64,000 nucleotides of DNA from Spiroplasma monobiae MQ-1. Lineage in GTDB: Bacteria > Bacillota_I > Bacilli_A > Mycoplasmatales > Mycoplasmataceae. The stretch is from contig NZ_CP025543.1 in the NCBI RefSeq assembly GCF_002865545.1, forward strand, positions 558,001 to 622,000. The letters are read 5' to 3'. The notes below the pieces were generated by a model. That model was not told the origin of the DNA. It did not search any database and was given only the letters and a program-made list of their open reading frames with translations. The position numbers and the translations under genes were made by a program. Positions 22,211-28,115 of this stretch are shown piece after piece (the stretch's first letter is position 1; each line of letters begins with the position of its first letter).

Positions 22211-22828
22211 ATGAATAATAAGAGCAATAAAATTGAAGAGAAATTAGAATTATTAAATTCAGAATTGGAAAATTTCAGAAATGATGTAAATATTTGAGCA
22301 ATAAATATGGAAACCACATTAAAAAAAGTTGCATTCGCTGTGGACGACCAAGATAATAAAATTATAAAATTTGTAGAGGAAACAGATAAAAGGAATAGAA
22401 ATGATACCAATATAGCTTTTCAAAAATTTTCAGAAAATCAAAATTTTAATATTAATAAATATTTATTCAATAATGAAAATAAGCAAAATTTTAAATTTTC
22501 AAAATTGGAAAATGATTTAAATTTGTTTAAAGAAAATCCTAATATAAGTCTAATATATCATGATGATCTTTATAAAGAAGTTGAGAATTTTATATTTAAA
22601 AAATTTAGTGATGAAAAATTAAATACCAAACATATAGATGATATTTTTTGTGAAGAATATCAAATACCTAAAAATAAAACAAGAATAATAAATGGCAAAA
22701 AAATAGATACTACTTTGCCTACTTACATAAGACATCATTTTCATCATATAAATGAATTTGATAACAAACCACCTTCTAAAATGGAAATTAAAGAATCTAT
22801 TATTTTATTGTCTAAAATTAAAATATAA
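22211..22828 (+). CDS. Hypothetical protein, 205 aa, with RxxxxH motif
   Basis: Not recognised. The N-terminal 70 residues are coiled-coil-like, the centre hydrophilic, and the C-terminus contains TYIRHHFHHINEFDNKPPS, an R-x4-H arrangement like that of HEPN ribonucleases but also possible by chance. ATG 22211 is preceded by AAGGAAACCAAC. Convergent with the HNH nuclease next to M.SssI, sharing one bidirectional terminator. Position in a defence-rich segment makes an immunity role conceivable; this is inference only. Confidence 0.55.
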
Positions 22829-22851
22829 GTTCAAATGAACTTATATTTTAA
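22816..22851. terminator. Bidirectional terminator between convergent genes
   Basis: AAATATAAGTTC/GAACTTATATTT 12-bp stem with AAAT loop. Both stop codons (plus gene 22826-22828, minus gene 22841-22843) lie in the stem. Confidence 0.85.
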
Positions 22852-23971
22852 TTTGTTCTTTTCTTTTTTCTATATATCATGTCTTTCTTTTTGTGAGAAA
22901 TTCTTTGTTAATATGATTAAATTTCAAATTTTCTTCTCTATTTAAGAAATATTTACCTTCCTCTCCCAAAGGAATAGCTACTCCATTTGTATCATAATAA
23001 AAAATATTGCTATCAAACTTTCTGTGAATTTCTTCTGGTAATGGTATGAAATTTTCCGGATCAGAAATCATATCTAAATAATCTTCTATATTAGCTTTAT
23101 TATCAGAGAATAACAATTTAATAATATTATCTTTTATTATGTGATATTCAAGAATATGACATTTTTGATATTTAGAATTATCATTTATATCAAATCCGAA
23201 AGGTAGAGAGATTTTATTTTTTTTATAGTAAGTATCGACATTCATACTAAACCTTTTTCTTGCTCTTTTTGCTAATTCTTCTCCTTTTTTGGCAATACCA
23301 TTATATTTATTGTAGTATTTTTTCATTTGTACTAAATAAACAAGAAAATCAGTATATTGTTTCTCTTTTTGCATAAATTCAAAGACACCTTTTAGTGCAT
23401 CATTTAAGTTAACAAACTTTTCTAATGTTATTTCTTCAGCATTTATTTTATATAAATCAAAATAATCTAATTTATACAAACAAAGGTCATCAAATAGTAT
23501 TATAAAGTTTCTAATACCAATATCTTCAAAGCCATCAATAATCATTTCTGCAGATGAAGGTTTGGCAGCTTCACCACCAGGATTGTTACCCTTAATAACT
23601 CCCACAATATTTTTTAATGTAGAACCATACTTTTCCTTACTATTTAAAAAATTATTAAATATTATTAATTCATTATCACTTAATTTATACAAATTAGAAG
23701 ATCTTTTTGAAGGTCTGTGCTCCTGAATTAAATTTAATTCTTCAAAAAGCCTTTCCCTATATTTAAATAAGCTAGGCTTATCACTAAATCACCTTGGGGT
23801 TGTAAATATATCTATTCAAACTTCTTTGAATTCAATTTTTCAATCTTTTATTATTCCAAAATCATTTGAAATAATTTGCAAATTTCCCTTAAACTTAGCT
23901 GAATTAGTAGAAAAAAAATTTTTTCTTATTATAGGAACATTTACTAAATATGTTTTATCTTTTATTGACAT
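22841..23971 (-). CDS. HNH restriction endonuclease, candidate partner of M.SssI
   Basis: 376 residues. The C-terminal third has an HNH core: KCHILEYH (C271, H272, H277), then ENFIPLPEEIHRKFD (N307, H316), the form seen in many Type II HNH nucleases. The N-terminal 170 residues are unassigned and could recognise DNA. The ATG lies 4 nt after the M.SssI stop, with GGAGGT formed by the last methylase codons, so both are translated in order, methylase first. Three TGA(Trp) codons occur before the first in-frame internal Met-like start, so routine calls would truncate it. If active it would need the CpG methylase for self-protection. Confidence 0.75.
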
Positions 23972-23974
23972 GTA

Positions 23975-25135
23975 TTAACCTCCAATTTTATCTATAATCG
24001 CTTCCAAAACTTCTACTGATATTGAATTTCCACAAACAAATATTTTTTGATTTTCAGTTAAAAATTCAATTTCATTTACTCTTTTTCCATCTTGTGAATC
24101 AAACCCCATATATAAGAAAGTTTCGTCTGAATTCATTTTTCTAATATTAGATCCATCTTTGATTTTTATTCTTGAATTTGCACCGCTTGCAGTTAAGGTT
24201 GGTCCTGTAAATTCAGGATCATAAACATAACCTTCTGAATTAAATTTACTGTAACCAATCAGTGAAGCTTTATTTATATTTGATTTTGTTTTTTTAAATT
24301 CAGTTAAATTATATTTCAATAAATTATTTAAAATATCTTTTTCAGAAACTATTTTATTTAAAACTTTTTTGATACTTTTAGGTTTTTTATCTCCCTTTGG
24401 TAGTTCAACAAATTCATTTAAAGTAGATATCATAAAAACTCTTCTTCTTGCTTGTGAGGAACCGAAGTCAGCGGCATTCAAAACTTCAATTGAGTTTTGA
24501 TAGCCAAGACTTTCTAATTTTTGCTTTCATTGATTTAGTTCTTCTTCATTCTTCTTGTGAAGAAGAGCTCCTACATTTTCCATTAACAAGTATTTTGGTA
24601 AGTCATTTTTTTCAGTTGAATCCAAAGCTCTTTCAATTTCTCATAAGAGACCTGATCTAGTACCAGAACCTCTTTTCATACCCTTTTGAATACCCTGTTG
24701 AGATAAGTCTTGACAAGGAAATGAATATGTTAATAAATCTATATTTTTCAAAGTTCTTTTGTAAAGGTCTCTAATATCAAAAATATTACCCTCTTTTTCA
24801 GATAACTTAATTGCATTATATATAATTTTAAGTTCATCATCTTTTTTTCTCTTCCAATAACCATTAGATACTGGATTTTTTGAGTTTCAAGATAGTGTTT
24901 TATTTTCCAAATAGTCAATCATTTCTTCTCTAGAAACTGATTTATACTCCAACTTTGTATGAAAATTGTTGTGTATAGCTTGATACATAACAATTGCAGG
25001 AACATATCATTCAGCAAGCCCTACTATTTCATATTCATCTTTTCTGACTTTCTCCAAGGCTTTTCTTTGAGCACCAATTCCAGCAAAAGCTTCAAATACT
25101 CTAAGTTTTTTTGTTTTATTTTCTACTTTGCTCAT
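23975..25135 (-). CDS. sssIM: CpG DNA cytosine-C5 methyltransferase (M.SssI)
   Basis: 386 residues, identical as far as I can recall to M.SssI, the CpG methylase of Spiroplasma sp. MQ1. It methylates C5 of cytosine in CG. Motif I is EAFAGIGAQ, motif IV FPCQDLSQQG with catalytic Cys141, motif VI MENVGAL, motif VIII SSQARRRVF, motif X CGNSISVEV, with a 100-residue target region between VIII and X. Length equals the known enzyme. Start MSKVENKTKK at 25135 has AGAGGAGCTAAAA upstream. Directly followed by an HNH nuclease gene, an arrangement typical of a Type II restriction-modification system. Confidence 0.96.
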
Positions 25136-26860: not shown

Positions 26861-26890
26861 AATAAAACCACCTTAAAAGGTGGTTTTATT
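26861..26890 (-). terminator. Intrinsic terminator of the C5-methylase-like gene
   Basis: AATAAAACCACCTT/AAGGTGGTTTTATT 14-bp stem, stop codon in the stem, T-rich on the minus strand. Confidence 0.85.
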
Positions 26891-28049
26891 ATTTATATTC
26901 AAATAATTTTTCTAATATTTTTTCAACAACTGTAACATTAACTGTTTGATTAAATTGTTTATAAGCTTGTTTAATATTTTTGTTAATTTCAAATTCTTCA
27001 GGAAGACTTAATAATCTTGCGCATTCTCTTAAAGTTAATCTTCTTTTTTCAGGACCATATATTGGAACTTCTGATATTGAAGAAATTGATTGAACAACTG
27101 TTGGCTCTTGTATTTTAATTCCAGATGCTTTAATTTGAATTAAACCACCATAAATATCTTTGATACCAGATTCATCTTTTCAATCTAATTTTCTATAAGA
27201 TGATTTTGCTCTTAAAACATCATAGTTTTTTTGCAATCATGAATCAATAAACTTAACATTGTTAATATAAAGTTCTTTGTTTTTATTAACAACACTTTGC
27301 ATTCATTCAGACATTTGATCTACAATTCTATTTGCAGTTTTAAAGTGATCAGTTCATATTGGAAAATCAAGATTTTCTACTTTAACATTTTTTCTAAACT
27401 CATTTCAAGCATCTAATATTCTTTTTTCTGTTGGTGTTATTTCATATATATTTGAATCAAATTTATCTTTTTTATTAAATATAGTTTCAATGTTATTTGA
27501 TGATTTTTTAACTTTACCTCTAAAGTTTAATTCTAAATAATCTTCGTTAATAAATTCTTTTTTTATAGCAGTAACAAATGATCTTGTTTTAAAATGAGGA
27601 ATACCAAATTGGTGTGGACTTAATAGAATTGGTTTTTTTGTTGTAACATAACCTAATCTTTTAAAAATCTCTTTTAGTTTTTTTCAAGTTTTACCCTTTT
27701 CATTTGTTCCAAGATTTTTAATGTTTTCAAATAAAACATATTTTGGATTTTTACTTTCAATAACTTTTGTCATTTCAAATACTAAATCAGTATCACTAAA
27801 CTCATATCAACTTCTTTGTTCTGCTTTTGCAAAAGCTTTTTCTGGAAGAGAACATAAAAGAACTTCGTGATCTGGAATTTCTTTAACACTGATATTTCTA
27901 ATATCTTTGCTAGCATTTAAATTAAAATTTACTTTGTATGTTTCTAAGCTGTAACTGTTTTTTTCACAACTTCATACACATTCACCATCAAATTTTTTCA
28001 TAGCTTGGTTGTATGCACCAATACCTGAAAATAAATTTACATATTTCAT
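26889..28049 (-). CDS. Cytosine-C5 methyltransferase homologue lacking the catalytic Cys
   Basis: 386 residues. Motif I VNLFSGIGAYNQAM and motif VI VLFENIKNLG are intact, but motif IV reads LLCSLPEKAFAKAE where active enzymes have a Pro-Cys pair: residue 70 is Glu instead of Cys. Motif VIII (IPHFKTRSF) is only partly conserved, and motif X reads NQTVNVTVV instead of GNS. The frame is otherwise unbroken across its length with several TGA(Trp) codons, so it is kept under selection rather than decaying. Catalysis on DNA is unlikely; it may bind DNA or SAM as a regulator or decoy. AGTGAGGTACTTT precedes the ATG. Confidence 0.8.
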
Positions 28050-28115
28050 AAAGTACCTCACTTGTATTTTTACATCTTTATTATTAAAACATTAAAATGC
28101 ATTATTTTATTAAAA

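Follow-up and report, generated by a model that had tools for sequence, protein, structure and literature searches.

There is very probably a nuclease partner to the CpG methylase M.SssI. In the window (the whole 64,000-nucleotide stretch of Spiroplasma monobiae MQ-1 DNA that we analyzed), the gene for this methylase is followed directly by an intact gene for an HNH nuclease on the same strand. Because the same arrangement recurs in about 80 Mycoplasmatales genomes from more than 20 genera, it is not a product of chance. Together, the two proteins probably constitute a restriction system whose target is the two-letter sequence CG. We assign a probability of roughly 0.6 to the reading in which the genes form a two-gene restriction–modification operon, with a methylase that marks CG and an HNH enzyme that would cut unmarked DNA only in dependence on that methylase. 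A more specific version, in which restriction is directed at the two bases CG, the nuclease works only through its C5 partner and the varied repeats of the methylase genes switch both activities off harmlessly, is put forward more tentatively, at a little short of even odds.

Epigenetic research uses M.SssI and M.MpeI as standard tools, and the CpG methylation of mycoplasmas has so far been ascribed to orphan enzymes. A conserved nuclease partner, if confirmed, would explain why CpG methylases exist in mycoplasmas, and to our knowledge CG would then be the shortest restriction target known. It would also predict that CG methylation guards the cell against self-cleavage and is switched together with the defense. 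We envision that a nuclease reading unmethylated CG would serve as a tool for mapping methylation.

The methylase–nuclease operon and its conservation

Read with genetic code 4, the window holds the two adjoining frames listed in Table 1. Three bases separate the methylase stop codon (TAA, 23975-23977) from the nuclease start codon (ATG, 23969-23971), and the ribosome binding site of the nuclease, GGAGGT, consists of the final two glycine codons of the methylase, with an SD–anti-SD duplex energy of about -10.5 kcal/mol. The sequence-only reading had described an intact 376-residue HNH gene directly 3' of M.SssI, a spacing of 4 nt and a ribosome site made of methylase codons; all three descriptions hold, the spacing to within how the bases are counted. 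The methylase is M.SssI by its 386 residues, its L191-L-H-K-K motif and its KIGG C-terminus, each as published for that enzyme (PMC3404938), and it matches Pfam PF00145 (E 2e-71) and the M.MpeI structures 8c56 and 4dkj (E ~1e-81).

Table 1. Positions in the window of the two genes and their associated signals
Feature	Position	Strand	Remark
C5 DNA methyltransferase, M.SssI-type, CG-specific, 386 aa	23975..25135	-	genetic code 4 ORF
HNH nuclease, MAG4270 family, 376 aa	22841..23971	-	genetic code 4 ORF
HNH catalytic core, residues ~270 to 320 (H272, N307, H316)	23010..23164	-	
Nuclease ribosome binding site GGAGGT	23978..23983	-	inside last two methylase codons
Perfect 18-bp hairpin, overlaps nuclease stop codon	22814..22854	.	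fold -17.6 kcal/mol

Several other features of the region deserve mention. The hairpin is probably a two-way terminator, common to the nuclease operon and a convergent gene at 22211-22828 (+); a simple terminator scan of the region did not list it because its stem has few G-C pairs. The convergent gene encodes a 205-residue protein without a known family and has no homologue near other pairs, and a search of the window region for RNA families found none. A second C5-methylase-like protein of 390 residues (26889-28061, -; PF00145, E 1e-48) is probably catalytically dead because LPEK stands at the position of the catalytic Pro-Cys motif. Across window positions 1-64000, CG is strongly depleted (observed/expected 0.36), unlike GC (1.18), a pattern to be expected where the genome is methylated at CpG.

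The nuclease belongs over its whole length to NCBIfam family NF045952.1 (E 9.4e-97; 324 bits against a curated cut-off of 53; profile positions 1-366 of 366), an entry of the hypothetical equivalog type named 'MAG4270 family putative restriction endonuclease', a name also borne by the nuclease of the M. hyorhinis pair. Pfam HNH_2 is sub-threshold for the window protein (E 0.0049) and matches 32 of 42 family members. The HNH core that had been picked out from the letters is confirmed: all 84 full-length homologues share H272, N307 and H316, with no loss of a catalytic residue in any relative. Because this triad is invariant despite a median nuclease divergence of about 79% among paired loci, the active site must be under selection. 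An AlphaFold2 model built from 42 sequences is of high confidence (mean pLDDT 90.6) and resolves an alpha/beta N-terminal part (~1-200), a 46-residue helix (206-251) and a C-terminal HNH domain (~252-376), in which the triad sits on a beta-beta-alpha element (strands 269-271 and 309-311, helix 313-320). The sole PDB match of note, also reached by a profile search, is to VcaM4I through its HNH part (E 0.0059); triad, modeled fold and this match place the protein among the HNH/beta-beta-alpha-Me nucleases. PADLOC, PHROGs and direct PDB sequence searches with the nuclease gave no matches, and profile and fold searches with its N-terminal domain returned nothing known, including no known DNA-reading fold.

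We surveyed 320 genomes of Mycoplasmatales, choosing loci through nuclease and methylase matches, and the pairing rates given here hold for that sample. Matches to the MAG4270 family occur in 125 of these genomes and M.SssI-type methylases (E below 1e-40) in 110. Nearly all full-length nucleases sit directly 3' of an M.SssI-type methylase on the same strand, and carriers include M. hyorhinis, M. agalactiae, M. bovis and M. ovipneumoniae. In 65 of 73 pairs, the nuclease starts at -25 to +5 nt relative to the methylase stop. Start and stop codons overlap or abut in 43 genomes and lie within 5 nt of each other in 27. One complete genome (G007) has both proteins fused in a single 803-residue frame (locus L119, 3188-5600, reverse strand). 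The distances of paired methylases and nucleases are correlated (Mantel rho 0.56; 0 of 999 permutations). The genes are both adjacent and co-inherited, as in Type II systems. One locus (L101, genome G011) has a single CG methylase followed by two tandem, divergent nuclease copies.

Full-length relatives of the nuclease were found only in the order of the window, three other Bacillota matching weakly in the HNH half, and nuclease remnants persist in four genomes where the methylase is gone. No nuclease was found in phages, the viral_contigs scan gave no relative, and the only match in the plasmid collection was a chromosome-sized M. hyorhinis record. M.SssI-like enzymes of other bacteria lack the nuclease and, by motif search, the CG signature.

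Frameshifted methylases beside intact nucleases

Frameshifts split the methylase between frames in 40 of 78 scored pairs, almost invariably at a slippable tract, and 39 of these 40 carry a repeat. The coding-region tracts, found in 46 methylases when six full-length genes and one partial gene are included, are of AG/GA, G, TC, C, CA or AT type and usually lie near residue 105-120. Six tract-bearing methylases are in frame and 39 are out, an in-frame share below one third (p 0.004). No repeat tract was found over 90 kb of nuclease genes, and the M.SssI gene itself has none. At nine loci, a tract immediately precedes the methylase. In lineages whose coding region has no tract, promoter-type switching is suggested by TA, AT or homopolymer repeats that lie some 50-80 bases before the methylase start (L032, L047, L064, L075, L098 and others). 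Phase variation through a poly-G tract has been described for the CpG methylase of M. agalactiae (PMC9465063).

NCBIfam (NF045953) names the N part of the split methylase a subunit, and we considered whether the two parts form a two-subunit enzyme. This was rejected for most cases because 39 of the 40 split genes bear a tract, because the C part mostly has no start codon with a ribosome site and because CG is not methylated in M. agalactiae strains whose gene is truncated (PMC9465063).

The nuclease stays intact when the methylase is off. Among the 40 split loci, 37 have an intact nuclease, and the three exceptions are a contig end, a stop codon and an interruption; M. agalactiae 14628 (L168) is one genome with an off methylase beside an intact nuclease gene. 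In M. agalactiae, CG methylation is present in strain 13377 only; strains PG2 and 5632, in which the CpG methylase is broken, have none by bisulfite sequencing (PMC9465063). Where the methylase is full length, an intact nuclease is kept at 31 of 31 loci. An enzyme that cut methylated CG would be lethal to cells whose methylase is on and, therefore, does not fit these 31 loci.

The sequence-only reading had taken the pair for a Type II system in which every unmethylated CG would be a target of the nuclease. Part of this stands, in that the nuclease is a conserved operon partner of CG methylases, with an invariant triad and one fusion. Gene order, separate polypeptides and strict co-occurrence all fit a classical Type II pair, as do the intact, tract-free methylase of the window and the strong ribosome site of its nuclease. 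What finds no support is a nuclease that recognizes and cuts unmethylated CG alone, a reading that we consider unlikely: such an enzyme would kill cells whose methylase is off, yet 37 reference genomes hold it intact beside a frameshifted methylase, and two M. agalactiae strains, PG2 and 5632, survive with no CG methylation (PMC9465063). Nor does a lack of sites offer an escape, because sites are plentiful, with all ten CG tetramers present and none strongly avoided. From the survival of methylase-off strains, we infer that nuclease activity requires production of the methylase, although absent or weak expression of the nuclease would give the same survival. Because the M.SssI gene is free of repeats, the pair in the window may be a classical one, and its methylase copy may always be on.

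Dependence on the methylase could arise by two routes, through a protein complex or through translation of the nuclease only after the methylase. In the second, a methylase frameshift would silence the nuclease as well, with the same restriction function. Start and stop codons that overlap or nearly touch in most genomes speak for this route, as does a reading frame that breaks far upstream of the nuclease, mostly in the region of the methylase where the tracts lie. As the sole safety device, however, coupled translation seems quite unlikely. In 20 of 38 off genomes, the ribosome site of the nuclease remains good (-5 kcal/mol or lower), which would make coupling alone a weak safeguard; the strength of this site shows no difference between loci with and without repeats (p 0.72), and nuclease that outlasts a switch would still be lethal if it acted alone. 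We favor the complex because of these 20 genomes and because a fusion exists.

Partner specificity and a proposed mechanism

In M.MpeI, CG is read by Q141, F302, E305 and A323, with S325 and R326 (PMC10899764). M.SssI has all of these residues, including those in the motifs FNSE and SGANSR, and is thus a CG-specific C5 methylase of the M.MpeI type; each residue is kept in 73-80 of 81 paired methylases. A comparison of the neighborhoods of M.SssI homologues, proposed on the basis of the window alone, recovered the same pair: a nuclease adjoins 79 of 82 methylases with the CG signature versus 2 of 11 without it (Fisher p 1e-8; shared ancestry inflates this value and that of the Mantel test, although the pattern still covers many genera). 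Six further methylases that we checked added one more unpaired CG enzyme, in a genome (G296) that also has a paired locus.

Some relatives have other partners. Five nucleases (L074, L079, L080, L081, L093) have no M.SssI-type neighbor, and directly upstream of each lies a shared protein of 310-350 residues with the C5-methylase-like motifs CQSFS and WYIENP, for which there is no Pfam or NCBIfam match and a weak PADLOC methylase match. One nuclease relative stands beside a DpnII-like gene (G155), and another forms a reversed pair with a non-CG methylase (G183). A locus from the same genus (L034, genome G180) has, in a row, an M.SssI-like methylase, then the nuclease and then another C5 methylase that is not of the CG type. 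Judging by gene neighborhoods, intact MAG4270-family nucleases seem to travel with a methylase, and their partners seem exchangeable. These exceptions would suit a nuclease that reads a longer or different sequence including CG, or one whose specificity was altered by a change of partner. We regard this as very unlikely, given that a CG-type partner is kept in 79 pairs across large divergence and that the tetramer counts, which served as a test for a longer target, revealed no strong avoidance.

In the mechanism that we propose, the methylase-dependent operon, the methylase would mark each CG of the host and the HNH protein would cut DNA that lacks the mark, so that CG methylation would protect the cell's own DNA. 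The nuclease would be inactive alone and would need the methylase, most likely through physical association, with the methylase locating or licensing the target site. Joint translation from a single message may help to make the nuclease dependent on the methylase. By analogy with VcaM4I, the long helix that precedes the HNH domain might restrain the nuclease, whose activity would be released upon engagement of the N-terminal domain.

Comparison with known systems

Some elements of this picture are already known, namely the NCBI family label and the repeats in the CpG methylases of a few species (PMC9465063). The sequence-only reading knew of no described nuclease partner for M.SssI; a family label does exist, and our literature search found no paper naming NF045952 or giving its specificity or function. 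Nor, in a search of mostly open-access literature that leaves a prior mention possible, did we find a paper that joins this nuclease family with the repeats of CpG methylases, describes its pairing with CG methylases throughout the order or spells out what this means for the mode of the nuclease. The methylome study of M. agalactiae called the CpG methylase MAG4250/MAG4260 an orphan, and its Table 2 has no restriction enzyme for it (PMC9465063); by number, MAG4270 is the next locus tag.

Among characterized proteins, the window methylase is of the same kind as M.MpeI, with the same CG-reading residues, and the nuclease is closest in its HNH part to VcaM4I (PDB 6yex), an EVE-HNH cutter of modified DNA (PMC7897488). 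The two nucleases have a common layout of N-terminal domain, long linker helix and C-terminal HNH, which might suggest a methylation-dependent, Type IV-like enzyme that cuts 5mCG DNA. This we consider extremely improbable. The N-terminal domain is not recognizable as the EVE domain of VcaM4I, and neither profile nor fold searches found an EVE, SRA or other PUA-type domain that would place the protein among EVE-HNH or SRA-HNH enzymes. Cutting of modified DNA in the manner of VcaM4I also does not fit a nuclease that is kept beside an active CG methylase, where cells would destroy themselves.

The closest parallel in switching is MmyCI of M. mycoides, a phase-variable Type III system with AG-type repeats in its methylase gene (PMC3498834). 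The on/off principle is similar, yet the proteins differ: Type III systems combine an N6-adenine Mod with a helicase/ATPase Res, whereas here a C5 CG methylase is joined by a small nuclease consisting only of an HNH and an N-terminal domain, without a helicase. More broadly, the logic that we propose for M.SssI and its putative partner is that of the phase-variable Type I, Type III and Type IIG systems, carried out by proteins of other families.
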